Shown one piece after another: positions 2,997 through 32,820 of a DNA stretch of 64,000 bases. Both the position numbers and the translations under genes were made by a program. The first letter of the stretch is position 1. Each line of letters starts with the position of its first letter. Origin of the DNA: Peptococcaceae bacterium (GTDB taxonomy: Bacteria > Bacillota > Desulfitobacteriia > Desulfitobacteriales > Syntrophobotulaceae); the NCBI GenBank assembly GCA_012517475.1, contig JAAYUV010000105.1, forward strand, positions 1 to 64,000, written 5' to 3'. The notes beneath the pieces were generated by a model. The model worked only from the letters and a program-made list of their open reading frames with translations. It was not told the origin of the DNA and made no database searches.

Positions 2997-3033
2997 TTTA
3001 TCATGTATTGTGAATTTTACAATACATGATAAA
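2997..3033. terminator. Perfect 15-bp inverted repeat between divergent fragments
   Basis: TTTATCATGTATTGT (2997-3011) and ACAATACATGATAAA (3019-3033) are exact reverse complements separated by 7 bases. The repeat lies between the divergent methyltransferase fragment and the activator gene. The stem is AT-rich and has no long T-tract, so an operator is as likely as a terminator. Confidence 0.45.
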
Positions 3034-3096
3034 TAGGTTTTTTAATATTGAACTCATGAAGAACTTGAGGTCCGGGTTGAGGAAGGAACTTCCCTG

Positions 3097-8150: not shown

Positions 8151-8167
8151 TTGGCATGGAATTTGCT
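8151..8167 (+). promoter_or_regulatory. Sigma-54 (-24/-12) promoter
   Basis: TTGGCATGGAATTTGCT matches the sigma-54 consensus, with GG and GC exactly ten bases apart. It precedes the DUF2193-like gene by about 50 bases and follows the gene for a sigma-54 activator. Confidence 0.8.
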
Positions 8168-9697: not shown

Positions 9698-9806
9698 TGA
9701 TTATTTGTAAAAAAAGGAAGGTGAAGGTGGTTAATTTTAACTGCCTTCCCACTTCCTAAAAAATGGATCACTATCAATACATTAGCAGATGAAGGGAGGA
9801 ATATCA

Positions 9807-10718: not shown

Positions 10719-11681
10719 ATGGATAAGTTTTGGGTAAAAACCGGTGCGCGTTTGCATCTTGGCCAACTGGATCTAAACGGATCTTTAGGCCGTTTGTATG
10801 GAGGACTGGGATTAGCCATTGACCGGCCTCAGTTAGAGATTACCGCAGAAAAAAGCAGCAAATTATCTCTGATTGGGTCAGAGGAAAAAAGACTGGAAAT
10901 CATCTCGCGTAAATATTTGGAATACTATGATCTTCCCGGTGTGAAGATAGAGTTGGTTCAATCCTTGCCCAGCCATAGCGGGTTGGGTTCAGGTACACAG
11001 CTTTCTTTGGCACTGGGTTTTGCTATTACCCGGGTTTATGGATTACAACCTTCTTTATTGGAAATAGCCGGGGTTACGGACAGGGAAAGCAGCCGCTCCG
11101 GAATCGGCGTTGCGGCTTTTGAGCAAGGCGGCTTTCTGGTTGATGGAGGCAAGCCGGTCAATCCGATAGCTCCAAAATCCGTCTTTGATGTCCCCCCGAT
11201 TCTCGCCCGCATCCCCTTCCCCGAAGAATGGGCCATTATTTTGGCCTTACCGGATAAGGAAGACAAAATGTCCGGAGAAAAAGAGGAAAATGCGTTCCAG
11301 TCATTGCCGCCGATGGCGGAAGAGGTGTCGGCCACGATTTGCAGGCTTTTAGTGATGAAGCTTCTTCCCGGATTAATGGAGAAAGATTTGGAAAGCTTTG
11401 GTCAAGCCCTGATAGAGATTCAAAAGCAGGTAGGAACCTATTTCGCTCCGGTCCAGGGAGGATATTATGCTTCCGATCAAGGGTTCCGGGTTGCGGAATA
11501 TCTGCTGGCACAAGGGGCAACCGGGGTAGGTCAGAGCTCCTGGGGTCCGGCGGTTTACGGATTCATCACGCGGGAAAAACAAGACGGCTTACTGGAAAAG
11601 ACTCAAAAATTCTTAGGAGAAAAAGTCCGGGTTTGGGCGGTTTCAGGCAGAAATCAAGGGGCAAGCTGGGGCTGGAAATAG
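10719..11681 (+). CDS. mptG: Beta-ribofuranosylaminobenzene 5'-phosphate synthase
   Basis: This enzyme condenses p-aminobenzoate with PRPP, releasing CO2 and PPi, in the first committed step toward the arylamine of H4MPT. At 320 residues it has normal length for this GHMP-kinase-like family. It begins with the typical ARLHLGQLDLNG stretch (residues 8-20). The glycine-rich phosphate loop PSHSGLGSGTQ is near 88, and SRSGIGVAAFEQGGFLVDGG is near 125. AAAGGAGAGG precedes the ATG. It opens the long collinear H4MPT/methanofuran block. The genes for its substrate p-aminobenzoate (PabAB, PabC) are about 18 kb downstream on the same strand. Confidence 0.92.
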   Translation: MDKFWVKTGARLHLGQLDLNGSLGRLYGGLGLAIDRPQLEITAEKSSKLSLIGSEEKRLEIISRKYLEYYDLPGVKIELVQSLPSHSGLGSGTQLSLALGFAITRVYGLQPSLLEIAGVTDRESSRSGIGVAAFEQGGFLVDGGKPVNPIAPKSVFDVPPILARIPFPEEWAIILALPDKEDKMSGEKEENAFQSLPPMAEEVSATICRLLVMKLLPGLMEKDLESFGQALIEIQKQVGTYFAPVQGGYYASDQGFRVAEYLLAQGATGVGQSSWGPAVYGFITREKQDGLLEKTQKFLGEKVRVWAVSGRNQGASWGWK

Positions 11682-11718
11682 ACCGGCAGCATGAGATTGA
11701 AGTAGGGAGAAAAAAGAG

Positions 11719-12267
11719 ATGAGCAGAGAGGAATTACAACCAAGAATTGCGTGGGGGATTACGGGATCCGGACATTTTTTGTCTTCCTGTATGGAATTTT
11801 TACTGCGTCTGAAGAAGGTTGACATATTTCTCTCCAAAGCGGGGAAAGAGGTACTGCATTACTATAGTTGGTATGAACAGTTAACATCTTCCGGTCATCC
11901 CCTGATTTTGGATGCCAGCGTCAGCGGGCTACCTGTGACCGGACTGTATACGGGCAAATATGATCTGGTGGTCATTGCACCGGCCACTTCCAATACCATA
12001 GCTAAAATGGCATACGGGATCGCAGATAATCTTATTACCAATTTATTTGCCCATGCCGGGAAGTGCAGGATACCCACCCTCATTTTACCCTGTGATTCCG
12101 CTCCTGAGATTAAATCAACCACCCCGCAAGGAGAACAGGTGTCGGTCTATGCAAGAGAAATCGACAGAAAGAACATTGCCACTCTGGCAAATTGGGACCT
12201 GGTTACGCTTGCGGACACTCCTGAACACCTAAAAAAAGAAATAGAAAAAGTATATCTCGGAAGATAG
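11719..12267 (+). CDS. Flavoprotein, probable dihydromethanopterin reductase (DmrB/AfpA type)
   Basis: This 182-residue protein of the flavoprotein/decarboxylase fold has an early GITGSGH nucleotide loop, the IAPATSNTIAKMAYGIADNLITN flavin segment near residues 90-115, and PCDSAPEI near 130. Archaeal relatives reduce dihydromethanopterin to H4MPT using FMN. The position between mptG and the pterin-synthase-like gene supports this role, although electron-transfer flavoproteins of the same family exist. The ATG follows AGGGAG. It is separated from its neighbours by short gaps, as in an operon. Confidence 0.75.
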   Translation: MSREELQPRIAWGITGSGHFLSSCMEFLLRLKKVDIFLSKAGKEVLHYYSWYEQLTSSGHPLILDASVSGLPVTGLYTGKYDLVVIAPATSNTIAKMAYGIADNLITNLFAHAGKCRIPTLILPCDSAPEIKSTTPQGEQVSVYAREIDRKNIATLANWDLVTLADTPEHLKKEIEKVYLGR

Positions 12268-12279
12268 GGGTTGGTCCGG

Positions 12280-13644
12280 GTGGAAAAGTATCTGCTTATT
12301 ACCGGTCAAATTGCCCGGCGGGCTTTATCCAGGGTCGCTGAGGGAATAAAACATATAGACTTGGAGATCAAGTCCCTGGGTTGTACGGTGGCGGCCCTCA
12401 TGACTACCGGGTTTATTGCCAGGGAACTGGCCCGAGGGGATAAATTGGGCAGTGACGTAATCATTATCATTCCAGGCTTATGCCAGGGACCTCTGGAACC
12501 AATTATTGAGGGGACAGGATGTAAAGTGTTGAGGGGACCTAATGATTTGGTCGACTTGCCTGCATTTTTCCAAATCGGGCTAAAGGGAGAGCAGGAACAC
12601 GCTGACAACAATAGGAGTTGGCCCGTTCAGATTCTGGCGGAGATCGTTAACGCTCCGCGGATGACAGAAAAAGAGATCGTGGATAAAGCACTGTATTACA
12701 GGGAATGCGGAGCCGACATTATTGATCTGGGCGGAGACGTGGACCAACCGTTTCCCCGCCTGGGAGAAGTCATAAAGGTACTAAAAAGTTATGGATTTAC
12801 GGTGAGTGTCGACAGCCACCAAAAAGAAGACATATTGGCTGCCGATAAAGCCGGCGCGGAACTGATTTTAAGTTTTACCTCCAAGAATTTGGAGATTGCC
12901 AAGGATCTGACAAGTAAAGTAGTGGTCATCCCTGATGACGGGGAAAGTATGGAATCCTTGTATCGCAACATGGAAAAATTAAACCAATGGAATATTCCCT
13001 ACCTGGTCGACCCTATCCTGCCTCCTTTAACCATGGGTCTGGCAGAAGGGATTGGGCGTTATCTCCGGGTGGGAAAGGAATTTCCCGATTGTGAAATGCT
13101 CATGGGATTAGGGAATGTAACAGAACTGGCAGATGCGGACAGCACCGGTATTAATGCGCTCATGATGGGGATTGCGGGAGAGCTTCAGATTAATTACATC
13201 CTGACGACGGAAGTAAGCCACAGGGCGAAGGGAGCCGTACAAGAGGTCAATCTGGCACGCCGGCTGATCCGCAAGGCCATCTTTGAGCAAAGAGTTCCCA
13301 AACATTTGGATGAAAGCCTGTTGACCATCAAAGATCCGTCGGGAAATTCTTATGACAAAGCCGAGTTATACGCCATGCATCAGGTAATCCGGGATAGAAA
13401 TTACAGAATATTTGTCCATGATCAAATTTATGTTTTTAATGCCCATTCCTTTTATCAGGGAACTTCCGCCCGGGAAATATTCTCCAGATTGGATATTCAC
13501 GATCCCCGTCATGCCTTTTACCTGGGAGTAGAATTGGGAAAAGCGGAAACCGCCCTGCAGTTAGGAAAGAGATATGTTCAAGACAATCCCCTGCGCTGGG
13601 GTTATCTCGGTGAGGCTAACATGAGAAAGAAGGCCTTGGTATGA
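12280..13644 (+). CDS. Dihydropteroate-synthase-like protein of H4MPT gene clusters (DUF6513/MJ0107 type)
   Basis: A DHPS-like barrel occupies about residues 120-380 (AGAELILSF, GLGNVTELADADSTG, TTEVSHRAKGAVQEVNLARRL). It is preceded by a roughly 110-residue N-terminal domain that is characteristic of the archaeal and methylotroph H4MPT-cluster protein. The inferred job is coupling the pterin to the RFAP arylamine in H4MPT synthesis. GTG 12280 is chosen because AGGGG lies nine bases upstream; TTG 12271 abuts that site. The stop overlaps the start of the next gene (ATGA). Confidence 0.8.
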   Translation: MEKYLLITGQIARRALSRVAEGIKHIDLEIKSLGCTVAALMTTGFIARELARGDKLGSDVIIIIPGLCQGPLEPIIEGTGCKVLRGPNDLVDLPAFFQIGLKGEQEHADNNRSWPVQILAEIVNAPRMTEKEIVDKALYYRECGADIIDLGGDVDQPFPRLGEVIKVLKSYGFTVSVDSHQKEDILAADKAGAELILSFTSKNLEIAKDLTSKVVVIPDDGESMESLYRNMEKLNQWNIPYLVDPILPPLTMGLAEGIGRYLRVGKEFPDCEMLMGLGNVTELADADSTGINALMMGIAGELQINYILTTEVSHRAKGAVQEVNLARRLIRKAIFEQRVPKHLDESLLTIKDPSGNSYDKAELYAMHQVIRDRNYRIFVHDQIYVFNAHSFYQGTSAREIFSRLDIHDPRHAFYLGVELGKAETALQLGKRYVQDNPLRWGYLGEANMRKKALV

Positions 13645-14237
13645 TCCTTGAAGCGATTCTTTCTTCGGTCAGTGAAGATGGTAAAGTGAATTTTGCTCCG
13701 GTGGGGGTCCATGTTCCCGATGATACCTTCCGGCTTTCGGAAGTCAAAGAGATGGCGATGTTCCTCTATTCCGGATCGCATTCTTTTGCCAATCTTAAGG
13801 CAAAACCCGAGGGGGTCATCAATTTTACCGATGATGTGTTGAGTTTTGTAGATACGGCTCTTTTTTCCGCGTTACCCCAGACGGTTCCCTCTTACCGGGT
13901 TGCTCCTCCCAGAATGACTGGGGCTAAGGCGGTATGGGAATTTGCAGTGACTCGATTTGACGACTCAATCAAACCGGCAAAAGCCAATGGAAGGATCCTG
14001 TTTTTTGAAGAAACAGCCGGATTTACCGGTTTTTGCAGAGCTCACGGAATCATTTTAGAGGCGGCCATTATGGCGACCCGCCTGCAGTGGGTCCGGCCGG
14101 GGGAGATAGAGAAATCATGGCCGCTCTGGCAGGAAGTGGTGAAAAAGACCGGGGGAATCAGGGAACAAAAAGCCTTCCGTAAAATAAACGACTATCTTGT
14201 CCAAAAAGAAATTTCTATCCCAAACTCTTTGGAGTAA
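13641..14237 (+). CDS. DUF447-family flavin-binding-like protein of C1 clusters
   Basis: This 198-residue protein belongs to the DUF447 family, which recurs in H4MPT/methanofuran gene clusters of methylotrophs and methanogens. The N-terminal part has the split-barrel FMN-binding look (NFAPVGVHVPDDTF, SANLKAKPEGVINFTDDV-like stretch at 50-70). A helical RAHGIILEAAIMATRL segment lies near 135. It starts inside the upstream stop codon, so it is translationally coupled. A role in H4MPT or methanofuran synthesis is likely, but the reaction is not established. Confidence 0.8.
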   Translation: MILEAILSSVSEDGKVNFAPVGVHVPDDTFRLSEVKEMAMFLYSGSHSFANLKAKPEGVINFTDDVLSFVDTALFSALPQTVPSYRVAPPRMTGAKAVWEFAVTRFDDSIKPAKANGRILFFEETAGFTGFCRAHGIILEAAIMATRLQWVRPGEIEKSWPLWQEVVKKTGGIREQKAFRKINDYLVQKEISIPNSLE

Positions 14238-14251
14238 GAGGAGGACTTATT

Positions 14252-15115
14252 ATGAAAAAGATTTTGATCCACTTGGAATCCGATTCCCAGGCCAGTGTTT
14301 TTGACCAGATTACCGCCTACGATGCCGGAGTTGATCAGGTCCTGGCCTATGGCGGAGTGCGAATAGAAGAAGTAACCAATCTCGTCTATGGGGCCATGTT
14401 TACCCGGGGCGGGGAGGGACTGCGGAATACCGCAATTTTTATCGGCGGCACCCACGTTCCGACGGCAGAGGCTCTGATGAAAAAAGTACAGGATACCTTT
14501 TTTGGGGATGTCCGGGTTTCGGTCATGTTCGATGCCAATGGATCCAATACCACTGCGGCCGCTCTCGTTCATAAGATCGCTTTCGGCCGGAACCTCCATG
14601 GCAAAAAGGCCCTCGTTTTGGCAGGGACCGGTCCGGTGGGAATCCGGGCGGCGATTCTTCTGGCCAGGGAAGGGTGTGAAGTCTATCTTTCCTCACGCCA
14701 GATAGAGCGTGCCAGAGAAGTTGCAAAACATATCCTTGAAAACAACGGCGTTCAGGTGATCCCAGTCGAGATCAGCGGGGCAAAGGACGTTCCCGGAGTA
14801 TTGAATCAGGGAATAAACATTGCAGCCTGCTGCGGGGCACCCGGGGCTCAGATGCTTGATCTGCCAACCTGGTCCAAGGCGTCTTCCCTGGAAATTATCG
14901 CGGATATCAATGCCGTAAACCCCTTGGGGGTTGAAGGAATCAAAGTTACGGATAACGGGAAGGAACGGGAGGGCAAGATTCTTTATGGCGCCATTGCCAT
15001 CGGCAATTTAAAGATGAAGGTCCACCGTGCTTCGGTTCAGGCTTTATTTGAAAGCAACCGTCTGGTATTGGATTTTGACTCCATCTATGAATTGGCCAAG
15101 AAAACGGAGGCCTAA
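14252..15115 (+). CDS. mtdB: NAD(P)-dependent methylene-H4MPT dehydrogenase
   Basis: It interconverts methylene-H4MPT and methenyl-H4MPT with NAD(P). At 287 residues it has normal length. The N-terminal substrate region includes DQITAYDAGVDQVLAYGGV (16-35) and RGGEGLRNTAIFIGG (50-65). The Rossmann loop LAGTGPVGIRAA is near 130. It is the bacterial-style enzyme, not the F420-dependent archaeal Mtd, so the pathway here feeds nicotinamide pools. The ATG follows AGAGGAGG. The next gene begins one base after the stop. Confidence 0.92.
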   Translation: MKKILIHLESDSQASVFDQITAYDAGVDQVLAYGGVRIEEVTNLVYGAMFTRGGEGLRNTAIFIGGTHVPTAEALMKKVQDTFFGDVRVSVMFDANGSNTTAAALVHKIAFGRNLHGKKALVLAGTGPVGIRAAILLAREGCEVYLSSRQIERAREVAKHILENNGVQVIPVEISGAKDVPGVLNQGINIAACCGAPGAQMLDLPTWSKASSLEIIADINAVNPLGVEGIKVTDNGKEREGKILYGAIAIGNLKMKVHRASVQALFESNRLVLDFDSIYELAKKTEA

Positions 15116-15116
15116 A

Positions 15117-16331
15117 ATGATCCTTCTGGTAGGGGTAAGCGTAAGGGCTCTCATGGAATCAGCAGCAGAATCGGGATATGAGGCCATGGGAATAGATTAT
15201 TTTGGCGACATAGATGCCTGCCGGCAGGGAAAAACCATGAACCTGACTGTCGACTATGGCGTGAGACCTACCGTGAAAAACTTATTGGAAGTGGCCAAAA
15301 ACGTATCCTGCCGGAGCCTTATCTATGCTTCGGGACCGGAAAATGCCCCCGAACAATTGGATTATTGGGAAGAACGGGGCCTTTTAAAAGGCAATGGAGT
15401 GTCTGTTTTACGGAAAGTGCGTAATCCCCGGGAACTCCGCCGGAGTTTAGGACAGGTGGGGGCTAAAATGCCCGGGTTCTGTTCCGTTAAGGAATGGCGA
15501 TATCCCCCGAACAGAAAACGATGGCTTTTAAAACCTCTGAACAGGGGAGGGGGACATGGAATTCTTGCCCTCCCGGAGGAAAAAGAAGATGCCAACCGTT
15601 TGATTTCAGCCTTGCCGGATCCAACGCAATATATTATCCAAGAATTTATGTCAGGAATCCCGGGTTCGGTCTCTTTCCTGGCCAACGGACAGAAAGCGGT
15701 AGTCTTAGGCACCAGCCGCCAGCTTATCGGAAGCAGGGGGAAGGAGAGACCATTCCTTTACGAAGGAAATATCGTTCCTCTTGATCTCCGCGGGATGATG
15801 AATCCAAAGGACTTTGAGAAGGAAATCACAAAGATGGTTCAGCACATAACCAAGGATTTTGGCTTAAAAGGAATCAATACCCTGGATTTTATCGTCAACC
15901 GGGATGGGATTTGGGTTCTGGAAGTCAATCCCCGCTGGTCGGCTTCTGTGGAACTTATTGAAAAGGCTCTTGGAGAACGTTTATTTGCCTGTCACCTCGC
16001 TGCCTGTAACGGAGCCGATCTGGAGGGAATGACAGACCTCTTGAAGCGGATTCAAACCGCAAATACCCATACTTTTTGGGGAAAGCGCGTCGTTTATGCT
16101 CCTGAGTCCGGGGTGATCGTGCAGTGTGACGGGAATCAACTGGAGTATTTATACAGACAAGGGGTACGCGATATTCCCCGGAAAGACACAAAAATTGAAA
16201 AAGGGCAGCCTATCTGTTCGGTATTGACCAGCGGAGCCACCGACCGGCATTGTGAACTGAGATTAGGAGTTAAGGCCAAATGGGCGGGGCAATTCTTTGG
16301 ACAATGCGGAGTGATGGCGGTTGCCCGTTAA
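15117..16331 (+). CDS. ATP-grasp ligase of H4MPT clusters (COG2232 type)
   Basis: This 404-residue ATP-grasp protein is related to the carboligase-like COG2232 family found beside H4MPT genes. The N-terminal preATP domain begins MILLVGVSVRAL. The glycine loop KPLNRGGGHGI is near 140, IIQEFMSGIPGSVSF near 180, and the metal-binding VLEVNPRWSASVEL near 265. ATG 15117 follows GGAGG that overlaps the end of mtdB. It probably forms an amide bond in a cofactor side chain; the substrate is unassigned. Confidence 0.8.
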   Translation: MILLVGVSVRALMESAAESGYEAMGIDYFGDIDACRQGKTMNLTVDYGVRPTVKNLLEVAKNVSCRSLIYASGPENAPEQLDYWEERGLLKGNGVSVLRKVRNPRELRRSLGQVGAKMPGFCSVKEWRYPPNRKRWLLKPLNRGGGHGILALPEEKEDANRLISALPDPTQYIIQEFMSGIPGSVSFLANGQKAVVLGTSRQLIGSRGKERPFLYEGNIVPLDLRGMMNPKDFEKEITKMVQHITKDFGLKGINTLDFIVNRDGIWVLEVNPRWSASVELIEKALGERLFACHLAACNGADLEGMTDLLKRIQTANTHTFWGKRVVYAPESGVIVQCDGNQLEYLYRQGVRDIPRKDTKIEKGQPICSVLTSGATDRHCELRLGVKAKWAGQFFGQCGVMAVAR

Positions 16332-16368
16332 AGTTAAGAAATAGTTTGAGAATAAAGGGGGGAGGCCG

Positions 16369-16710
16369 ATGGGCAGTATTTCCGGATTATTGATTACTGT
16401 CCGCACAGGCCGGCAAGGGGCGGCGATGGAAAAAGGGAAATCCTCGACTGAGTATGTTCAGGAAATTTCCACCTTGGCGGTTTGTCCGGAAGATGTCGTT
16501 TCCCTGGGTTTGGGCGAGGACCAAAAGGCTGTTCTGAAAAGTTCAGCCGGAGAAATCACGGTGACGTGCCGTTCTGTGGAAGGGCCGCAAGGGATTTTCT
16601 TTCTACCGCTGGGGCCTTTAGCCAACCGGCTGATTGATGAAGAAACCCACGGGACGGGAGTTCCGGACTTTAAAGGGATTCCAGTAATCCTTTCACCCTT
16701 AGCTAACTGA
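16369..16710 (+). CDS. fwdD: Formylmethanofuran dehydrogenase subunit D (molybdopterin dinucleotide-binding)
   Basis: This 113-residue subunit corresponds to the C-terminal dinucleotide-binding domain of bis-MGD enzymes, split off as FwdD. It shows the N-terminal GLLITVRTGRQG, then VCPEDVVSLGLGEDQKAVLKSSAGE and a PLGPLANRL segment. Archaeal FwdD partners FwdB to enclose the Mo/W cofactor, whereas the Fhc complex of methylotrophic Proteobacteria lacks it. Its presence therefore argues for a redox-active enzyme. It lies 50 bases before fwdB. GGGGGGAGG precedes the start. Confidence 0.82.
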   Translation: MGSISGLLITVRTGRQGAAMEKGKSSTEYVQEISTLAVCPEDVVSLGLGEDQKAVLKSSAGEITVTCRSVEGPQGIFFLPLGPLANRLIDEETHGTGVPDFKGIPVILSPLAN

Positions 16711-16759
16711 CTGCTATGGAGAAGGCATGAACAATTCATTGGATCAAGGAGGAGAAGAA

Positions 16760-18088
16760 ATGACAGTAACCGTTCATGAAGATGTGGTTTGTGCGTTTTG
16801 TGGTTGTCTCTGTGACGACCTTCAAGTAGAGGTAGAAGATAATAAGATTACCAAAGTCAGCCATGTCTGCACGATAGGCCGGAATAAACTGATGCATTCC
16901 CAATCCGGTTTGGCCTCGCTCCGGGTAAACGGCAAAGAGACAAATTGGGAAGAGGCACTTTCGGAGGCGGCCGGTATTCTGGCCAGAGCTAAAGCTCCCC
17001 TGGTATACGGGTTGAGCAGTACCACAACGGAGGCCATCAGTGAAGCGGTTGCCCTGACGGAGCTCATCGGAGGGACGGTCGACAACCCGTCATCCTACTG
17101 ACACGGGCCGGGCGTTCTCGCCCGCCAGCAAGTTGGGCTGGCTTCATGTACTTTAGGAGAAGTAAAAAACCGGGCAGATCTTCTGATCTATTGGGGTGCA
17201 AATCCCATGGAGTCTCATATGCGCCATTTGAGCCGGTATTCTGCGATGTCCAAGGGACTCTATGCCTCTGAAGGGCGCAAAGGACGGAAAGTGGTGGTCA
17301 TCGACGTAAGGCCCACCCCAACCTCGAAGACTGCGGATCTCTTTCTTCAGGTCACACCCGGACAAGATTTTGAAATTGCCCATGTCCTCCGTTGTTTGAT
17401 CAAAAACATCCCGCTGGAAGGATTGACGGAAACAAGTCAAATAGGCGGTGTTCCTTTATCCCAATGGCGGGAATTGGCTGAAATGATGAAACAATGCCAT
17501 TATGGAGTGGTCATGTTTGGCATTGGCCTTACCCAGAGCCGGGGCAAGGACTTGAATGTTGAAGAGATTAATACTTTGGTCAGCGAATTAAACCGCTATA
17601 CCCGCTTTTATGCGATTGCCATGCGGGGACACGGCAATGTGAACGGAAGCAATCAGGTATTGGTTTGGCAGACCGGTTATCCTTTAGCGGTAAATTTTCA
17701 GCGCGGGTACCCCCGTTTTAATCCCGGGGAATTCAGTGTAGTGGATATGCTTACCCGCCAAGAGGTGGATGCGGCTTTGATTATTGCCACCGATCCCGGT
17801 GCCCATTTACCGCAGGCTGCGGTCCGTTATCTCCAAAGCATCCCGACCATTGTACTCGAACCGCATGAAAACTTAACCACTGATTGGGCCAATGTCGTGA
17901 TTCCTGTTGCTCCGGCCGGGGTGGGTGCCGAAGGAACATTTTACCGGATGGATAATGTCTCCCTGCGTCTGAAAAAATTAGTGGATTTTCCGGTCTCCTC
18001 TGACCGGGAAGTATTGCAATCGATCAAAGAAAGAGTAATTCAGCTCAAGGGTGATCTCCAGGATAAAGGAGAGAATAAACCATGTTGA
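16760..18088 (+). CDS. fwdB: Formylmethanofuran dehydrogenase catalytic subunit B, selenocysteine-containing
   Basis: FwdB holds the Mo/W bis-MGD and one [4Fe-4S] cluster and interconverts CO2 and formate, which FwdA joins to methanofuran. From ATG 16760 (AAGGAGGAG upstream) to 18088 the frame encodes 442 residues with one in-frame TGA at 17099-17101, codon 114. It is followed by HGPG, so the motif reads U-H-G-P, the site of the metal-ligating Cys/Sec in archaeal FwdB/FmdB (near residue 118). Cluster cysteines are visible at 11, 14, 18 and 37 (CAFCGCLC ... C). Homology runs on without a gap after the stop codon (YWGANPMESHMRH, RGHGNVNGSNQ, ATDPGAHLPQ). Ending at the TGA would leave 113 residues without an active site. 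The frame overlaps fwdA by 7 bases. Confidence 0.9.
17099..17142 (+). promoter_or_regulatory. UGA selenocysteine codon and candidate bacterial SECIS hairpins
   Basis: Two adjacent perfect 6-bp hairpins follow the UGA. The first is CGGGCG/CGCCCG (17109-17114 with 17119-17124) with a UUCU loop. The second is GCCAGC/GCTGGC (17124-17129 with 17137-17142) with a 7-base AAGUUGG loop, whose apex is about 28 bases from the UGA, within the usual bacterial SECIS window. They share G17124 and so cannot both form fully. The UGACACGGGCC start resembles the fdhF recoding site as I recall it. SelB binding is inferred. Confidence 0.65.
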
Positions 18089-21511: not shown

Positions 21512-22470
21512 CAGATATGATCCAGTTAAGTCCCAACCGGCAGGCTTTTCCTTATGTCAAGCAGTTAATGGAGCGTCCTGAACAACTCAAGGTGGAGATT
21601 CAAAAAATTGGCCAGTCAACCGTCATCGATTGCGGGATCAATGTTCCCGGCGGCTGGCAGGCGGGTGTACTATTCGCCAACATCTGTCTGGGCGGTCTGG
21701 CGGAAGTAACCATGCACTGGGCGGACTTCGGCGGGATACGCTGGCCTGCCGTGGAAGTGATCACCGATCATCCGGTTCGGGCTTGCATGGCCTCCCAGTA
21801 TGCCGGATGGTTTGTGAAAAAAGACAAATATTCGGCTATGGGTTCAGGACCTGCCCGTGCTGTCGTTCAGTCCGAAGAACTGTTTGAGAAATTAGGGTAT
21901 AAGGATTCGTCCGACCTGGCCATCCTTTGCCTGGAAGGCCGTAAGCTTCCTACGGAAGAGGCAGTGAAATGGATCGTGGAAAAATGCCGCTGCCCGGCAG
22001 AGAATCTCTATATTCTCATCGCCCCTACGGCCTCGACGGCAGGTTCGGTCCAGATAGCCGCACGTTCGGTGGAGACGGGTCTGCACAAGCTTATGGAACT
22101 GCGATATGACCTGGGTCTCATCGAGAGCGGGTGGGGGATTGCTCCTGTCCCGCCGGTAGCGGAGAATGACTTGGGAGCCTTGGGGCGAACCAACGATGCC
22201 ATCCTCTATGGTACGACTGTCCATTACGTTCTGGATGATGAGGATGAACATCTTCAGTCCTTGATTGATAAAGTCCCTTCGTCCAGCTCACGCGATTATG
22301 GCGTACTCTTCCAGAAATTATTCGAGCGCTACGGTAATTTTTATGATATCGACCCTTTGCTTTTTAGCCCGGCCCAGGTTTGGCTGAGCAATAAGAGAAG
22401 CGGACGCTCTTATCGTTCCGGCGAAATCCGTCCCGATCTCTTAACCCAATCCTTCAGGTTGGAATTGTAA
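21496..22470 (+). CDS. mch: Methenyl-H4MPT cyclohydrolase
   Basis: It interconverts 5-formyl-H4MPT and methenyl-H4MPT, linking Ftr to MtdB. At 324 residues it has normal length. Conserved stretches are VIDCGINVPGGWQAG (45-60), FGGIRWPAVEVITDHPVRACMASQYAGW (83-110), MGSGPARA (115) and APTASTAGSVQIAARSVET (175-195). Translation begins within fwdC, with no long ribosome site of its own. It is the last of six overlapping catalytic genes. Confidence 0.93.
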   Translation: MPIQLTDMIQLSPNRQAFPYVKQLMERPEQLKVEIQKIGQSTVIDCGINVPGGWQAGVLFANICLGGLAEVTMHWADFGGIRWPAVEVITDHPVRACMASQYAGWFVKKDKYSAMGSGPARAVVQSEELFEKLGYKDSSDLAILCLEGRKLPTEEAVKWIVEKCRCPAENLYILIAPTASTAGSVQIAARSVETGLHKLMELRYDLGLIESGWGIAPVPPVAENDLGALGRTNDAILYGTTVHYVLDDEDEHLQSLIDKVPSSSSRDYGVLFQKLFERYGNFYDIDPLLFSPAQVWLSNKRSGRSYRSGEIRPDLLTQSFRLEL

Positions 22471-22483
22471 AGGACAATGAGAG

Positions 22484-23422
22484 ATGGAAAGAAAACCTTT
22501 CTTCAAAAAAAAGCGGATAGGGATCCTTGGAACAGCCAAAGGGTCTCATGTTCAGACCATGTCCATCGTTTTACAAGGGTTGGGGGCCGAAATTACCCTG
22601 GTTGATCCGAAAAGACTGACTTCCTTCCTTCCCCAGTGCAGTACGGTATTTGCGGAAAGCGATGGATTGGTAACAAATTTGGAAGACCTGGACGCCTTGG
22701 TGGTACGGTCTCTCCCGGGCGGATCCTTGGAACAGGTGATTTACCGGGTAAATGTCCTTCACCACTTGGAAATACTCGGTTTAAAAGTGATCAACAATGC
22801 CTCGTTAATTGAGAAAACGGTAGATAAATTTTTCACCACCGCCTTATTGGCCAATGCCGGACTGCCGGTCCCCAAAACCATTGTCACCGAACGGTTCGAC
22901 CAGGCGATCGAAGCAGTAAGACAGATAGGTGCCGTTGTGGTCAAACCCGTTTTCGGTTCCCTGGGCAAAGGGATTGTTTTGGTCGAAGATCCGGATATTG
23001 CCCACAGAGTTTTCCGGGCACTCGAAATGGGGCGCTATATCTATTATCTTCAGGAATTCCTGCCAAATGGCAATGAAGACCTCCGTCTATTTGTCGTAGG
23101 AGGTCAAGTGGTTGGCGCGATGCGCCGTCGTGGCCAAAATTGGAAAACCAACATCGCCTGCGGGTCGACGGCTGAAACCTATAAACCTGAGAAGGAAATT
23201 GCCCAACTGGCTATCCGGACTGCTAATATCCTGAAAGCAGACTACCTGGGGGTAGATATCCTCATTAGCAATGGTACTCCCTATGTGATAGAAGCCAACG
23301 GAATTCCCGGCTGGACCGGGTTGCAGTCGGTAACTGAAGCAGATATCGCCGGTATTCTGGCGGAATATATCCTGGCGGAGATTAAAAAGCATGAATACAG
23401 AAATAAAAAACAAGGGGTTTAA
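22484..23422 (+). CDS. RimK-type ATP-grasp ligase, possible H4MPT:glutamate ligase (MptN-like)
   Basis: This 312-residue ATP-grasp protein has a VVKPVFGSLGKGI nucleotide loop (near 150), YYLQEFLPNGNEDLRLFVVGG (185-205), RRGQNWKTNIACGST (215-230) and VDILISNGTPYVIEANGIPGW metal ligands (260-280). This is the RimK/MptN layout. In methanogens MptN adds glutamate to H4MPT to make tetrahydrosarcinapterin, and methylotroph clusters carry a similar gene. The exact product here is unknown. The end overlaps the next gene by 32 bases. Confidence 0.78.
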   Translation: MERKPFFKKKRIGILGTAKGSHVQTMSIVLQGLGAEITLVDPKRLTSFLPQCSTVFAESDGLVTNLEDLDALVVRSLPGGSLEQVIYRVNVLHHLEILGLKVINNASLIEKTVDKFFTTALLANAGLPVPKTIVTERFDQAIEAVRQIGAVVVKPVFGSLGKGIVLVEDPDIAHRVFRALEMGRYIYYLQEFLPNGNEDLRLFVVGGQVVGAMRRRGQNWKTNIACGSTAETYKPEKEIAQLAIRTANILKADYLGVDILISNGTPYVIEANGIPGWTGLQSVTEADIAGILAEYILAEIKKHEYRNKKQGV

Positions 23423-24326
23423 CTGGAAAATGGCGTTGATGGCCCAAACTGCCTGCATATTGGAAGCGGACGCACCTAAAGTCGGCAACGTCAACCGATT
23501 TCATGATTTTGCCGATGCCTCCCTGGAGGATTTTCACTGCAGCGCTTTGGCCATTGGACGTCCATTCGGCTATCTGGAAAGGCTGGGAGTGGGAAAAACG
23601 GTTTACGATGCAGTAAAGGCCACCCGGAAAGTCGTTTTAACCAATACCAATCTTGGGATTATCCTGCTGCTTGCCCCTCTGGGGATGGCCTGGTGCCGGA
23701 TAAGATCCCGGAAAGATCCGGATTCCGGGAATCACGGGTCTCAGAAATCTTTGCCATTAGCCTTAAAACGGGAAATCGGAGAGGTTTTGCAAAGCCTTGG
23801 CGCAGAGGATACCCGCCATGTCTATCAGGCCATCCGCCTGGCCTCTCCCGCCGGGATGGGGGAAGTACAGCAATATGACGTGTTGCAGGAAGAATCTCCC
23901 CCCATTCCCTTACTGAAGGTTATGAAACTCGCGGCAGGGAGGGACCTGATCGCCAGGCAATACAGGGATGATTTTGAACTGGTTCTTGGTATAGGATATG
24001 AAGCATTGAATCATTCCCTGGAAAAAGGGTTAGCCTTGCCCCAAGCGATTGCCCATAGCCACCTGATTCTGCTGAGTCAGGTACAGGATTCTTTGATAAC
24101 CCGTAAGCTCGGTCCGGAGTGGGGCAGGGAAGTGCAAAAACGGGCGCGCTTTGTCTGGGAACAGGGAGGATGGCTTACTGCAAAGGGGCTGCAAGAAGTC
24201 CGGGAATTTGACAGCTGGTTACGGGGAGAAGGGCACAGCCTGAATCCCGGTACGACTGCCGACCTCATGGCGGCGATCATCTTGGTATACCTCATGGAGA
24301 ATGATCAGAAAAAAAGAAGGTGCTAA
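23391..24326 (+). CDS. CitG/MdcB-like (triphosphoribosyl-dephospho-CoA synthase family) protein of C1 clusters
   Basis: This 311-residue member of COG1767 has an N-terminal ADAPKVGNVNRFHDFADASLEDFHCSA segment (24-50), matching the family's PGNV...D motif, and NTNLGIILLLAPL near 85. Classical members attach ribosyl groups in citrate lyase prosthetic-group synthesis, but no citrate lyase genes are here. A cognate gene recurs in H4MPT/MFR clusters, so a ribosyl- or pterin-related transfer is inferred. It overlaps the preceding ligase gene by 32 bases, and its stop sits one base before mfnB. Confidence 0.75.
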   Translation: MNTEIKNKGFNWKMALMAQTACILEADAPKVGNVNRFHDFADASLEDFHCSALAIGRPFGYLERLGVGKTVYDAVKATRKVVLTNTNLGIILLLAPLGMAWCRIRSRKDPDSGNHGSQKSLPLALKREIGEVLQSLGAEDTRHVYQAIRLASPAGMGEVQQYDVLQEESPPIPLLKVMKLAAGRDLIARQYRDDFELVLGIGYEALNHSLEKGLALPQAIAHSHLILLSQVQDSLITRKLGPEWGREVQKRARFVWEQGGWLTAKGLQEVREFDSWLRGEGHSLNPGTTADLMAAIILVYLMENDQKKRRC

Positions 24327-24327
24327 C

Positions 24328-25131
24328 ATGTCATCACAAACAGCTCTCATGATCAGTGTCGTCAGTGGGAAAGAAACGCTTGCCGCCTTAGAGGGGGGAG
24401 CTGATATTATTGACGTCAAGAATCCCGCTGAAGGGGCCTTGGGGGCTCCGACCCCCGCCGCGGTACAGGACGTTTGTCTCAGATTGAAGGGGAGTAAACC
24501 TTTCAGCATTGCATTAGGGGAATTTCCCGGGAAGCCGTGCGCTGCGGCTTTGGCGGCCTTGGGCAGTGCTTTTTTCCGGCCGGATTTTGTCAAAATCGCT
24601 TTTATCCCCCATCATTCTCCTGAGGAAATCTGCAAAACGCTTCAGGAAATAAAAAAAAGCCTATCCATCATAGACTTCAAAAGAATTTCTTTAGTCTCCG
24701 TGGCTTATGCCGATACCCTCAGTTTTGCTTCCTGGAAACTGGAACGTTTTGCAGAGGCCTCCAGGGAAGGGGGGGCTGACGGGTGTCTGGTTGATACCTG
24801 GGAGAAAAAAAACAAGACACTCCTTGATTATTTACCTTTGGATGCAATCCAAAAATGGATTGGAGAATGTCATCGTCAGGAATTATTCTGCGGACTGGCG
24901 GGTTCGCTGAGTTTTGCCGACGTGGCCAGTATTAGCCGATTTGAGCCGGATATTATCGGGGTTAGATCGGCAGTCTGCGGGGGAGACCGCCTGGGTGGGA
25001 CAGTATCCGCTCCCAAAGTGAAAGCGCTTAAAGAAATAATTGACCGGAGAAAGCATGAGACGGAATACAGATCCCCCGACCGGTACCTACCTGCAAGAGG
25101 CCGGCAAGCCTTTCAGGATCTTGGCCATTGA
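24328..25131 (+). CDS. mfnB: 4-(hydroxymethyl)-2-furancarboxaldehyde-phosphate synthase
   Basis: MfnB builds the furan ring of methanofuran from two glyceraldehyde-3-phosphate molecules. The 267-residue TIM-barrel protein (DUF556) shows GGADIIDVKNPAEGALGAP, with the catalytic lysine at 31, FVKIAF near 90, and ADGCLVDTW near 150 with the likely second catalytic residue. ATG 24328 follows GAAGGTG and the preceding stop by one base. The last 104 bases are antisense to mfnE on the opposite strand; that C-terminal tail (about 25 residues) may be a read-on extension not needed for activity. Confidence 0.9.
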   Translation: MSSQTALMISVVSGKETLAALEGGADIIDVKNPAEGALGAPTPAAVQDVCLRLKGSKPFSIALGEFPGKPCAAALAALGSAFFRPDFVKIAFIPHHSPEEICKTLQEIKKSLSIIDFKRISLVSVAYADTLSFASWKLERFAEASREGGADGCLVDTWEKKNKTLLDYLPLDAIQKWIGECHRQELFCGLAGSLSFADVASISRFEPDIIGVRSAVCGGDRLGGTVSAPKVKALKEIIDRRKHETEYRSPDRYLPARGRQAFQDLGH

Positions 25132-25681
25132 TAAACCAAACCGGCATACCCATAGGTAATTGCTGACGGAAAAAAGGGTCAACATCCGGTTCCCATAACG
25201 AAGGATCCAGGTCCGTGCTTTTGACAAGAACCAGCATGGAACAGTCTATTCGTTTAGCCAGGTAGGCCGCAATGGAATCGGAGGTAACATCCCAGGAACG
25301 GGGAAGAGCGGCTTCGGGTACCTGGCTGAAAAATTTGGAGACTAAAAGGATTAGGGGCTTGCCAGGAGGAGTCAGGCCAGCCGGGATGAGTGGTTCCGTA
25401 TTCAATAAATAAGTCATCTCGCTGCCCGGGATAAACTCCCTGAGCAAGTAAGCGTATTGATCCATGGCCCCTAAGGCCATAAAATGGCAAGTCTCTTCGC
25501 CAAGTCCGAATTTTCTTCCGTATTCACGGACAAGATCGGCAAAGGGTCCCCCCCCTGCCACGATCAATAATGGATGTACCGAAGCATATGTGGCGATGAT
25601 ACTTCCGATACGTCGTAAAATATCTCCGTTATTATGATAAATTAAGCTGCCTCCAAGCTTAAGGATGATGGGTTTCGGCAT
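25028..25681 (-). CDS. mfnE: Amino-acid-kinase-family protein, [5-(aminomethyl)furan-3-yl]methyl phosphate kinase-like
   Basis: This 217-residue amino acid kinase fold protein has an N-terminal LKLGGSLIYHN phosphate loop, IVAGGGPFADLVREYGRKFGL near 42-62, and WDVTSDSIAAYLAKRI near 130. MfnE phosphorylates the aminomethyl-furan phosphate before coupling to the tyramine-glutamate arm. It is the only gene of the C1 island on the minus strand. It runs into mfnB with a 104-base tail-to-tail overlap and is divergent from mfnD, so it needs its own promoter. Confidence 0.85.
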   Translation of the reverse strand: MPKPIILKLGGSLIYHNNGDILRRIGSIIATYASVHPLLIVAGGGPFADLVREYGRKFGLGEETCHFMALGAMDQYAYLLREFIPGSEMTYLLNTEPLIPAGLTPPGKPLILLVSKFFSQVPEAALPRSWDVTSDSIAAYLAKRIDCSMLVLVKSTDLDPSLWEPDVDPFFRQQLPMGMPVWFINGQDPERLAGLLQVGTGRGICIPSHAFSGQLFL

Positions 25682-25785
25682 TTCCGTTATCCTCCGGCGA
25701 ATGATTTCTTACGAAAATAAAAGACGGAACTTAAGATTAACTTGATTAATTATAACAAAGAGTGATGCAAGATGGGGGTAATATT

Positions 25786-26805
25786 TTGAAGCTTTTTATC
25801 TTTGAGTATTTCGCATCCGGGATGAAGGAAAGTCATGAGCTTAAGAAGGCCGGATATGCCATGCTGGATGCTGTCCTTCGGGATTTTACCAGGATTCCGG
25901 AAATAAATATCATGACCATTTTTGACTACTCCCTGAAAGAGCGGGTTTTCCAGGATCCTCTCGCCCCGGGATTAGAAATTTTCTGGAGAAAAGGCCGGGA
26001 AGACGGGCAGAAATTGTTTGAAGAAATATTAATCAGATGTGAAGCGGTATTAATCATTGCCCCTGAGACAGCCGGTATTCTGGCCGAATTGACGGCTCTG
26101 GCCGAAAACAGGGGGAAGATCGTTCTGGGTTCATGTTCCAAAGCCTTGAACGTTACCTGTCATAAAGCCAAACTTCTGAGTCTGATGGGAAAGAAAGGTC
26201 TGCCCGTTCCCCGTTCGGATATTTTGCAGAAACCATTGGCTTCCGTTGCCAAGGCCCAAATCCTAGAAATGTTTTCTTACCCTTTGGTGATTAAGCCTGT
26301 TTGCGGGACGGGGGGAGAAGGAGTAAGACTGATTCAGACCGGAGAACAACTGGATAAGGTGGTTGAACAGTTAGCCACTATGGGGGAAGAGACATTTCTT
26401 GTTCAGGAATATATTCCGGGCCAGGCGGTAAGTGTCAGCCTCTTTGTTCTTGAAGGCAAAGTGCTGCCTCTAAGCTTAAACCGGCAAATCCTAAAGGATG
26501 AAGACGAGCTTGGTTTCCGGGGGATTACTGTTCCTTACGAACACTCCCTGGATCAGGATATTATAAAAATTGCTTCAGCAGCCTGTGAACAGGTGGAAGG
26601 ACTTAAAGGCTTTATCGGAGTGGATTTGGTGGCGGGTCCTGAGGGACCGGTTCTGATAGAGATCAACTCCCGGATCACGCTGGCTTATGTAGCCCTGAGA
26701 GAAGTGGTGTCCCGGAATTTGGCCGGGGACCTGCTGAACCTTTGTGTGGAAAACAGGGTCCCACCAAAGCCCGAGATTCAAGGAAGGTATACCTATCGGC
26801 TTTAG
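25786..26805 (+). CDS. mfnD: Tyramine--L-glutamate ligase (ATP-grasp)
   Basis: MfnD joins glutamate to tyramine through its gamma-carboxyl in methanofuran synthesis. The 339-residue ATP-grasp protein begins LKLFIFEYFASG, as archaeal MfnD does. The nucleotide loop VIKPVCGTGGEGV is near 175, VQEYIPGQAVSVSLF near 205, and the metal site VLIEINSRITLAYVAL near 290. TTG 25786 is preferred because GGGGG lies seven bases upstream and the homologous N-terminus begins there; in-frame ATGs at 25762 and 25765 would add an unconserved leader. It is divergent from mfnE. Confidence 0.88.
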   Translation: MKLFIFEYFASGMKESHELKKAGYAMLDAVLRDFTRIPEINIMTIFDYSLKERVFQDPLAPGLEIFWRKGREDGQKLFEEILIRCEAVLIIAPETAGILAELTALAENRGKIVLGSCSKALNVTCHKAKLLSLMGKKGLPVPRSDILQKPLASVAKAQILEMFSYPLVIKPVCGTGGEGVRLIQTGEQLDKVVEQLATMGEETFLVQEYIPGQAVSVSLFVLEGKVLPLSLNRQILKDEDELGFRGITVPYEHSLDQDIIKIASAACEQVEGLKGFIGVDLVAGPEGPVLIEINSRITLAYVALREVVSRNLAGDLLNLCVENRVPPKPEIQGRYTYRL

Positions 26806-26890
26806 CTTTGGGGTGGAAGCTTATACCCGGAAATTCCAATGATTCCTGCTTGATTAGAACCTTTAAAAAATGAAAAGGAGAGGATGGGCT

Positions 26891-27955
26891 TTGACTGGCA
26901 TACTGGGGCTGGATATCGGAGGCGCCAATACCAAAAGCTGTTCTTTGAGAATGGACAAAGGAGAAATCTCTATGGCAAGAGGAGCTTCCGTTTATCATGA
27001 AGTCTGGAGAAAGCCCGAAGGTCTGAGGGATGTCCTGATGGACCTGAGAGCTTCCATGATACAAGGAGACACAACGATAGAAGGCATTGCCCTGACCATG
27101 ACTGCCGAACTTTGTGACGGGTTTGAATCAAAAACGCAAGGAGTACTCTTTATCCTCGGGATGGTGGAAGAGGTTTTTGCAGATGTGCCTGTCTATGTCT
27201 GGACGACCCGGGGAGTCTTTGCCCATCCATGTGAAATAAGGAAAGAACCCTTGCAGGCGGCAGCCGCCAATTGGCTGGCGAGTGCCACGGCACTGGCCGG
27301 GAGTCCTTTTCTGGCGGGAAATCCGGTAATTTTTGCCGATATGGGAAGTACGACTACGGATATCCTCCCTTTGGCCTCCGGAAAAGTTTTAGCCAAAGGA
27401 AAAACAGATACGGAGCGTTTGCTTTACGGAGAGCTGCTCTACACAGGGACACTCCGAACGGGGGTACACTCCATTCTGGATGAAGTGTATCTGGAAGGGC
27501 ATTGTTGCCGGGTGGCTCACGAATACTTTGCGATCAGTGCGGACGCTTACCGGTTTTTAGGCCTGATCACCGAGACAGACTATGATGTTCCTACCCCGGA
27601 CGGAAAGAACCGCGATATCGATGCCTGTGCCAAACGGTTGGCTCGTGTGGTGGGAGCAGAACCGGAAGAAATCGGCATAAATAACATTTACAGCATTGCC
27701 CGGGCAGTCATGGAAAAGCAGACCAGACGAATTACGGACAATATCTTACGGATCATCTCCAGAAAAGATGTACCGGAACCGAAGCAATTGATTACAACAG
27801 GCCAAGGCAGTTTTATTCTGGGAGAGGTGGCCCGCCGCCTGGGATGGAAAGAAACACCCTGGTGGCAGATGATTCCCGGAGGATATGGACAACTGGCCAT
27901 GACCAGCTATGCCGTAGCCTGGTTACTCTACCGGCAAATCCAGAAAGAGATGTGA
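26891..27955 (+). CDS. mfnF: Hydantoinase/oxoprolinase-like methanofuran synthesis protein
   Basis: This 354-residue ASKHA-type protein of COG1548 begins ILGLDIGGANTK and contains TMTAELCDGFESK (60-72), NPVIFADMGSTTTDILPL (145-160) and TTGQGSF near 305. MfnF couples the furan diphosphate to the tyramine-glutamate moiety. TTG 26891 is chosen because GGAGAGG lies seven bases upstream; the in-frame ATG at 26870 precedes that site. It follows mfnD by 85 bases. MfnA (tyrosine decarboxylase) and MfnC (aminotransferase) are not seen in the window. Confidence 0.88.
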   Translation: MTGILGLDIGGANTKSCSLRMDKGEISMARGASVYHEVWRKPEGLRDVLMDLRASMIQGDTTIEGIALTMTAELCDGFESKTQGVLFILGMVEEVFADVPVYVWTTRGVFAHPCEIRKEPLQAAAANWLASATALAGSPFLAGNPVIFADMGSTTTDILPLASGKVLAKGKTDTERLLYGELLYTGTLRTGVHSILDEVYLEGHCCRVAHEYFAISADAYRFLGLITETDYDVPTPDGKNRDIDACAKRLARVVGAEPEEIGINNIYSIARAVMEKQTRRITDNILRIISRKDVPEPKQLITTGQGSFILGEVARRLGWKETPWWQMIPGGYGQLAMTSYAVAWLLYRQIQKEM

Positions 27956-27961
27956 TTCTAT

Positions 27962-28795
27962 GTGAAAAGACAATTTAAAATCATTCCCGTATTAGACCTG
28001 AAAGACGGCCTCGTCGTCCGTGGAATTCGGGGAGATCGAGCTAAATACCAACCGGTCCAGAGCAAACTTACGCCTTCTGCTGAGTTTTCAGATGTCCTGG
28101 AAGCCTTTCACACAGGGTTCGGCTTTGAAGAATTCTATATCGCCGACCTGGATGCACTGACCTCCGGCGGAGAAAGAAATCAACTCAGCCTGTTAGCCAA
28201 CAGGATTAAAACAAATAAACCACCGGTCTCTTTCATGGTAGATGCGGGCATCCGGGATGCAGCAGGTATTGCAGGTGTTGTTAAGGCAGGAGTCAAAAAA
28301 ATAGTTGTCGGTACGGAGACACTGCTTTCTCTGGAAGCCTTAAAGGAAATGGTTGCCGTCTATGACTCGCGGAGTCTGGTGGTCAGTATTGACATCAGGG
28401 GTACGGAGGTGATAAGCTCTTCTCCTGAGATTGCCCGGATGACTCCGGCTGGAGCGGTCAGGGAAATACGTAAAACGGGAATTCAGGATTTTATCCTGCT
28501 GCAGCTAGGCAAGGTGGGTACAGGAGAAGGATTAGACAAGCCCCTGATTCAAGAGTGCCTGTCTGTCCTGGCAGAAATGGACCGTTCTGATGTTACCCTT
28601 CTGGTCGGCGGAGGAATTTCCGGCTCCGAGGATTTAAAATGGCTGGCAGATCTCGGACTGGACGGAGCCCTTATAGCTTCCGTTTTGCATGATGGGAAAT
28701 TGGGGCCGGATACCGTCCGTGCTCTACAAGATTACACTATATACAAATCAAAACAAAAAACTAACGAGGCAAACGAATCAGGTTTAGAAGATTGA
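27962..28795 (+). CDS. HisA-like phosphoribosyl isomerase-fold protein of C1 clusters (COG1411)
   Basis: This 277-residue (beta/alpha)8 protein begins FKIIPVLDLKDGLVVRGIRGDRAKYQPV, the HisA-type start. It also has YIADLDALTSGGERN near 60, FMVDAGIRD near 88 and VGGGISGSEDLKWLADLGLDGALIASVLHDG near 220. It lacks the full HisA catalytic set by eye and sits beside no histidine genes. The family is a constant companion of H4MPT/methanofuran genes in methylotrophs and methanogens. GTG start at 27962, six bases after mfnF. Reaction unknown. Confidence 0.8.
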   Translation: MKRQFKIIPVLDLKDGLVVRGIRGDRAKYQPVQSKLTPSAEFSDVLEAFHTGFGFEEFYIADLDALTSGGERNQLSLLANRIKTNKPPVSFMVDAGIRDAAGIAGVVKAGVKKIVVGTETLLSLEALKEMVAVYDSRSLVVSIDIRGTEVISSSPEIARMTPAGAVREIRKTGIQDFILLQLGKVGTGEGLDKPLIQECLSVLAEMDRSDVTLLVGGGISGSEDLKWLADLGLDGALIASVLHDGKLGPDTVRALQDYTIYKSKQKTNEANESGLED

Positions 28796-32144: not shown

Positions 32145-32225
32145 AATCTAAACATTTAGAACCTAAAAGCGAAATGTTCTGTAGAGTTATATTATTTTGG
32201 ATGAGAAAAAATTGAGGTGATTCGA

Positions 32226-32795: not shown

Positions 32796-32820
32796 AACGA
32801 TACATATGGAGGTTGAAGTA

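Follow-up and report, generated by a model that had tools for sequence, protein, structure and literature searches.

The fwdB gene of a tetrahydromethanopterin (H4MPT)/methanofuran one-carbon (C1) island in a Peptococcaceae bacterium almost certainly encodes a bacterial selenocysteine (Sec) protein, predicted from an in-frame TGA codon and a bacterial-type selenocysteine insertion sequence (SECIS) downstream of it. The island lies on contig JAAYUV010000105.1 (assembly GCA_012517475.1), of which positions 1 to 64,000 were analysed and are referred to here as the window. It spans approximately 5,967-33,600, from the gene of a sigma-54-dependent activator at its 5' end to fdhD at its 3' end. Matches to Pfam and NCBIfam profiles indicate that it encodes C1 catalysis with H4MPT and methanofuran together with most of the biosynthesis of the two carriers. 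An earlier note, made from the DNA letters, had described a complete archaeal-style module of this kind at 10,719-28,795. The presence of an H4MPT island in a Firmicute is not new (PMC5020050, PMC10100899). A TGA-containing bacterial fwdB with a SECIS appears to be new, and a search confined to open-access literature turned up no account of such a Sec FwdB from bacteria.

The in-frame TGA of fwdB is a predicted selenocysteine codon

The gene for the predicted Sec formylmethanofuran dehydrogenase subunit B, fwdB, occupies 16,727-18,088 on the plus strand. It is split in two in the list of open reading frames (ORFs), and the sole interruption on read-through is a TGA at 17,099-17,101 (plus strand) in the context NPSSY-U-HGP. 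Hence fwdB, which the earlier note had named, is present, but not as a plain single ORF. The read-through product matched TIGR03129 over its full length (positions 1-421; 534.5 bits compared to a cut-off of 327.8). Homologous FwdB sequence lies on both sides of the TGA, and the frame stays open for 328 residues beyond it. A sequence search of the PDB matched the FwdB structures 8rja (4e-127) and 5t5i (8e-121). The N-terminal 4Fe-4S cysteine motif (CAFCGCLC) and the U/CHGP motif align with 8rja, and the MRGH motif aligns with solved FwdB. In alignments with other FwdB the TGA falls on their metal-ligand Cys, where solved FwdB have the Cys/Sec ligand of Mo/W. In genome searches that counted stop codons, FwdB had one TGA in each of two genomes, G303 and G372, and no TGA in most of the remaining Firmicutes. 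Altogether, the same TGA and the stem described below were present in eight distinct Firmicute genes and in one gene of Solidesulfovibrio, the source of the latter being a metagenome bin. The genome from which the window derives also carries selB (C109:24019-25119) and a tRNA-Sec gene (C109:31838-31931), about 7 kb apart. Since ordinary gene callers split fwdB, bacterial Fwd may be under-counted.

A bacterial SECIS was expected as a hairpin inside the coding sequence, some 16-37 nt downstream of the UGA. Behind the TGA of fwdB lies an apical hairpin with a 6-bp stem (GCCAGC-AAGTTGG-GCTGGC; 17,124-17,142, plus strand), which is within the coding sequence and has its apical loop ~29-35 nt after the UGA. 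The stem is paired in all nine Sec genes (54/54 base-pair cells). In a codon-constrained control, only 0-21 of 500 synonymous recodings folded as strongly as the native sequence in the eight Firmicute Sec genes, compared to 493 of 500 for an unstructured Cys copy of fwdB on a second contig of the same genome, C89. Synonymous identity over the 16 codons after the TGA was 80% among the Sec genes; in 404 other windows it averaged 41% and never exceeded 67%. Simple shuffling gave no significant result for the hairpin (z ~ -1). It also counts against the Sec assignment that only one hairpin pair has changed on both sides, so that covariation by itself is weak. The support for the SECIS is therefore the synonymous conservation and the contrast between Sec and Cys genes, rather than covariation.

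Selenocysteine in FwdB may have been gained once within bacteria

A maximum-likelihood tree was calculated from 48 FwdB sequences, 26 bacterial and 22 non-Sec archaeal ones. The 26 bacterial sequences formed a single clade (100/100) separate from the 22 archaeal sequences. The nine Sec FwdB and the Cys copy from C89 also formed a single clade (100/99), whose sister is a Cys relative, and the actinobacterial FwdB in the tree have Cys. The simplest reading of this topology would be that Sec was gained once within bacteria and lost once, by reversion to Cys, on C89. Because the bacterial FwdB form their own clade, we infer that bacterial Sec is independent of archaeal Sec, and a recent direct transfer from archaea is not supported. 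An archaea-to-bacteria direction for FwdB was likewise reached by a published survey (PMC10100899). A SECIS-read bacterial Sec FwdB would mean that this CO2-handling enzyme acquired its selenium in bacteria, in a clade distinct from the sampled archaeal FwdB. Such a gain bears on the published claim (PMC7331816) of Sec as the family's ancestral ligand.

The Cys copy on C89 belongs to a second island with the same gene order; its proteins and their counterparts in the window share 50-95% identity. Provisionally, Sec and Cys FwdB isoenzymes may thus occur in one cell, or C89 could be a binning error or a contaminant from another relative. A contaminant resembling Gracilibacter sp. BRH_c7a was considered and rejected, as C89 has only ~75% DNA identity to that record.

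The island is patchily distributed

The closed chromosome of Candidatus Formimonas warabiya repeats the front half of the island, as do two isolates, Moorella sulfitireducens and Desulfosporosinus lacus DSM 15449; papers on Ca. Formimonas warabiya do not mention these proteins in the main text. As the same order is found in isolates, in a closed chromosome and on C89, a chimeric contig is ruled out as the source of the island, and the concern raised in the earlier note that the contig might be chimeric at the island edges was not borne out. The source genome belongs to the same order as D. lacus (G013), and the island was present in 6 of 73 genomes of this order. The Sec type was found in two Moorella-type genomes among 22 of their class. 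The island is also richer in G+C (0.47-0.53) than most of the 54-64 kb flank (0.40-0.46), as the earlier note had judged by eye, and G+C at third codon positions is ~0.46-0.58 in the island core. The patchy distribution and the higher G+C fit horizontal transfer. Collectively, a Firmicute host with a working-looking H4MPT/methanofuran module, probably acquired by transfer, stands as first proposed, whereas a recent direct archaeal donor and novelty of the module as such do not.

Two variant loci were seen in relatives. Gracilibacter sp. BRH_c7a has a DUF2193-AqpM-mptG island (L059, 15.1-15.9 kb) without the fwd-ftr-mch core; its mtdB fragment is followed directly by citG/mfnE fragments, which reflects natural deletion or misassembly. 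At locus L055 (genome G218, 8.2-13.4 kb), fwdDBA is flanked by two ftr homologues in a cluster without DUF2193.

A DUF2193-AqpM pair heads the operon behind a sigma-54 promoter

A sigma-54-dependent activator with PAS, AAA and Fis helix-turn-helix domains (5,967-7,919, plus strand; PF00158, 4.3e-68) is the likely switch of the operon, and its gene lies immediately 5' of DUF2193 in many Firmicute islands. A sigma-54 -24/-12 promoter, TGGCATGGAATTTGCT, is located at 8,152-8,167 (plus strand), 64 bases ahead of DUF2193, and matches the consensus at 11 of 12 positions. Promoters scoring 9-12 of 12 were present at all 16 related non-Halanaerobium Firmicute loci; shuffled sequences reached 11 in 0.08%. 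The DUF2193 gene (8,216-9,697, plus strand) encodes a full-length PF09959 match (1.5e-249; 829 bits compared to a cut-off of 25) with residues that are invariant across 50 homologues. Its AlphaFold model is all helical, with a predicted local distance difference test score of 86. The adjoining gene (9,789-10,550, plus strand) encodes an AqpM-type aquaporin with two NPA motifs, whose nearest solved relatives are AqpM structures (2evu/2f2b, 2.8e-87; 3ne2, 2.8e-86). AqpM adjoins DUF2193 in bacteria and in most of the archaeal loci examined, the two being a conserved pair in methanogenic archaea too, and it is the sole consistent partner among the archaeal neighbours of DUF2193. This DUF2193-AqpM head behind a conserved sigma-54 promoter appears to be new.

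Of 398 genomes sampled from the phylum, 11 have DUF2193, eight of them among the 12 with a full FwdB (Fisher p = 5e-12, uncorrected for genome kinship), and one of the three others has a partial FwdB on the DUF2193 contig. Fae (PF08714) was absent from all 13 island-bearing genomes in a search whose control was positive in two archaea, and Mer (TIGR03555) was likewise absent from all 13. DUF2193 is therefore a candidate for C1 entry, a guess based on where its gene lies and what it co-occurs with. We tentatively propose, with rather more doubt than confidence, that AqpM brings in a small C1 compound and that DUF2193, as a previously unrecognised enzyme independent of Fae, attaches it to H4MPT. 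This would hold for methanogenic archaea as well as for anaerobic bacteria, the latter combining it with a home-grown Sec formylmethanofuran dehydrogenase. Several results speak against this role. Four FwdB-positive genomes have no DUF2193 match, and DUF2193 is therefore dispensable in some pathways of this kind. DUF2193 has no sequence relative of known function in the PDB or Pfam, and its model gave no Foldseek match at E 0.001 and no VIA-align match at Z >=5, which is no proof of a new fold. The pair could instead serve some other need that H4MPT organisms have in common, for example metal handling or the supply of CO2/H2S, and the chances of this come close to even. The pair is present in many methanogens that have other C1 entry routes, in one methanogen AqpM rose when CO2 was limiting at high pressure (PMC12727201), and DUF2193 is up on pyrite in M. 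voltae (PMC9431491). This alternative accounts less well for the near confinement of DUF2193 to H4MPT-island genomes in the sampled Firmicute phylum, for its promoter-proximal position there and for the lack of Fae in the island-bearing genomes. The conserved pair is a testable candidate for a missing step of H4MPT metabolism in methanogens and anaerobic bacteria, with D. lacus DSM 15449 and M. sulfitireducens among its named carriers. As a separate observation, the DUF2193 gene of a rumen Methanobrevibacter metagenome-assembled genome (L121, 10001-11497) has an internal stop codon.

The module probably oxidises C1 units to CO2

Judged by its genes, the island is probably a horizontally spread, sigma-54-controlled operon that oxidises formaldehyde-level C1 to CO2 via H4MPT and methanofuran, in an anaerobic Firmicute with folate and carbon monoxide dehydrogenase/acetyl-CoA synthase (ACS) genes. 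Formate-tetrahydrofolate ligase (Fhs) was found in most of the 13 island-bearing genomes, with only end fragments in the Halanaerobium genome, and ACS in 9 of the 13, which indicates that a folate branch is already present. Since Fae and Mer are absent and folate genes are present, the module appears limited to the steps from methylene to CO2, beside the folate branch. This span, together with inducible control, favours the oxidation of an optional C1 compound, and the NAD(P) type of MtdB was counted toward the oxidative direction. The gene content, the conserved TGA and hairpin, selB and tRNA-Sec, the conserved sigma-54 promoter and the lack of Fae and Mer are observations, whereas the direction of flux, the substrate and the role of DUF2193-AqpM are inferences.

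In the proposed pathway, a small neutral C1 compound would enter the cell, possibly via the AqpM channel, and methylene-H4MPT would be formed by DUF2193 or by spontaneous condensation. MtdB, Mch and Ftr would convert methylene-H4MPT to formyl-methanofuran, which FwdA would hydrolyse to formate. Formate would then be oxidised to CO2 by FwdBD with FwdC, at a Mo/W centre with Sec as the protein ligand. SelB and tRNA-Sec would insert Sec at the TGA (17,099-17,101), directed by the hairpin (17,124-17,142), while the products of pabAB/C, folE and fdhD would supply para-aminobenzoate (pABA), dihydroneopterin triphosphate and Mo/W sulfuration.

Two points weigh against an oxidative role: Fwd is a reversible enzyme with which methanogens reduce CO2 (PMC10100899), and the electron-carrier subunits FwdF/G were not seen. 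The reversed module would carry out ferredoxin-driven CO2 reduction and deliver methylene to biosynthesis or acetogenesis, replacing formate plus Fhs by a route that needs no ATP. The presence of ACS in every Firmicute Sec-type genome tested is consistent with this direction. We nevertheless regard it as unlikely, because without Mer the reductive branch ends at methylene-H4MPT in all 13 genomes and because a sigma-54-inducible promoter is more apt for an optional substrate than for the central fixation of CO2. The system could also resemble Fhc, with FwdA yielding formate, FwdB a dead scaffold and the TGA merely a tolerated stop. FhcB is a scaffold without Mo/W (PMC10100899), the Ftr-FwdABC order resembles that of fhc islands, and FwdE/F/G were not seen. 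This is very improbable, however, given nine genes with a TGA at the ligand position followed by a conserved hairpin, a frame that persists for 328 residues, the match of the N-terminal cysteine, HGP and MRGH motifs to solved FwdB, and the retention of fwdD and fdhD. Hardly credible at all is an assembly artefact or a decayed pseudogene, for which one could cite the draft state of the genome (115 contigs, 3.78% estimated contamination) and the apparently broken genes at ~1.2-3 kb and 35-41 kb. The recurrence of island and TGA in isolates and in a closed chromosome refutes an artefact for the TGA, the other ORFs are intact, and synonymous constraint behind the TGA is strong. We thus retain the oxidative module with a predicted Sec FwdB as the preferred interpretation.

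Gene content of the island

Essentially all genes named in the earlier note were found in their places with Pfam and NCBIfam profiles. From mptG to the HisA/HisF-related gene, all lie on the plus strand except mfnE. The H4MPT-biosynthesis gene mptG, for beta-ribofuranosylaminobenzene 5'-phosphate synthase (10,719-11,681), exceeded its subfamily cut-off (TIGR00144, 207 bits compared to 113.5). It is followed by genes for an AfpA/DmrB-like flavoprotein, a dihydromethanopterin reductase candidate (11,719-12,267; PF02441; TIGR02699 and TIGR02700 under their cut-offs), a dihydropteroate-synthase-like protein (12,271-13,644; TIGR00284, 1.1e-64, under its cut-off; DUF6513 and PterinBD-DUF4346), DUF447 (13,641-14,237; PF04289, PF20766), the NAD(P)-type methylene-H4MPT dehydrogenase MtdB (14,252-15,115; PF09176, 7e-31) and a COG2232-like ATP-grasp ligase (15,117-16,331, with its start ATG at 15,117; PF02655). 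fwdD (16,369-16,710; NF042908, 6.6e-18, under its cut-off) precedes fwdB. Behind fwdB are fwdA (18,082-19,722; TIGR03121, 729.8 bits), ftr (19,713-20,648; PRK02114, 418.7 bits; TIGR03119, 396.2 bits), fwdC (20,645-21,511; TIGR03122, 273.3 bits) and mch (21,496-22,470; TIGR03120, 373.7 bits), all above their NCBIfam cut-offs. The distal part comprises genes for an MptN-like RimK-family ligase (22,484-23,422; NF040720, 233 bits, under its equivalog cut-off; rimK_fam above its cut-off), a CitG-like protein (23,391-24,326; PF01874, 3.7e-61), MfnB (24,301-25,131; PF04476, 1.3e-59), an mfnE-like amino-acid kinase (25,028-25,681; PF00696, 5.4e-12) that is inverted onto the minus strand here and in the second island copy, an mfnD-like ATP-grasp protein (25,762-26,805; NF040722, 1.6e-36, under its cut-off; PF18301, PF02655), MfnF, an H4MPT-linked C1 protein (26,870-27,955; TIGR03123, 303 bits, above its cut-off), and a HisA/HisF-related protein (27,962-28,795; TIGR00734, 1.4e-35). 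The MptN-, MfnD-, AfpA- and dihydropteroate-synthase-like genes are thus matches under strict equivalog cut-offs. Genes for catalysis and most of the biosynthesis were confirmed, but the module is not complete as had been claimed: FwdE/F/G, MfnA and MfnC were not among the identified genes of the window, and Fae and Mer were not found anywhere in the genome.

The island is longer than the earlier interval, beginning upstream with the activator, DUF2193 and AqpM. Downstream it extends through a gene for a GvpU-like small protein (gas vesicle accessory; 28,811-29,257; NCBIfam GvpU) and four plus-strand genes: a pabAB fusion for the pABA of H4MPT (29,300-31,372; PF00117 and PF00425), a pabC-like class IV aminotransferase gene of uncertain start (31,233-32,144; PF01063, 2e-44), folE for GTP cyclohydrolase I (32,217-32,795; PF01227, 3.4e-78) and fdhD for a formate dehydrogenase-type Mo/W sulfuration protein (32,806-33,600; PF02634, 7.4e-78), also found in the second copy. 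That pABA, GTP-cyclohydrolase and FdhD genes accompany and travel with the island looks new. The GvpU-like gene is retained within the island in the C89 copy and in Gracilibacter sp. BRH_c7a.

Neighbourhood of the island

Upstream, 241-4,368 encodes a methyl-corrinoid system with an MtrH-like methyltransferase, a corrinoid protein and RACo, whose neighbours are apparently split or truncated. Downstream, pieces of a molybdopterin oxidoreductase lie several kb apart (35,437-36,660 and 40,136-41,136), and the N-terminal piece runs directly into a moaA that lacks its own N-terminal part. A major facilitator superfamily gene at 38.5-39.6 kb is frame-broken. The broken genes at 35-41 kb may reflect decay, rearrangement or local misassembly and, given these and those at 1.2-3 kb, sequence beyond fdhD should not be over-read. 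A molybdenum cofactor (molybdenum/tungsten) riboswitch at 46,748-46,884 (plus strand), just 3' of modABC and near moaC/mogA/mobB, is in keeping with an Fwd that requires Mo/W. A T-box leader is located at 50,183-50,458 (minus strand).

Comparison with known systems

The fhc islands of methylotrophs cluster Ftr, homologues of FwdA/B/C, Mch, MtdB, MptG and carrier-biosynthesis genes with several odd genes, and the clustering of these catalytic and biosynthetic genes is shared with the island described here. Unlike in fhc islands, the FwdB of this island retains the Mo/W ligand (Cys/Sec), FwdD is present and Fae is not, a DUF2193-AqpM-sigma-54 head is present, and the hosts are anaerobes with folate genes and mostly ACS. 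The fwdDBA-ftr-fwdC operon of the Hakuba Actinobacteria (PMC7325909) shares the core order, the lack of FwdE/F/G and a Wood-Ljungdahl bacterial host. H4MPT biosynthesis genes, which the island has, are reported in that study to be missing from the Hakuba genomes.

H4MPT/methanofuran genes in Firmicutes, including fwdD and Afp, were already stated in PMC5020050, the consulted part of which makes no mention of Sec, SECIS, the sigma-54 promoter or DUF2193-AqpM. One earlier study had no bacterial FwdB in its set (PMC7331816), and a later one had 149 (PMC10100899). A 2026 selenoprotein review treats Sec FwdB for methanogenic archaea (PMC13188914), and cites Vorholt 1997 for Sec and Cys FwdB isoenzymes in one organism. 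The island's predicted enzyme resembles the archaeal Sec FwdB of Methanopyrus and Methanococcales in being a Mo/W subunit with Sec in a UHxP motif and possibly in the occurrence of Sec/Cys isoenzymes. In contrast to the archaeal Sec enzymes, its fwdB sits in a Firmicute operon without FwdE/F/G, the predicted SECIS lies within the coding sequence just after the UGA, and Sec would have been gained in the bacterial clade.

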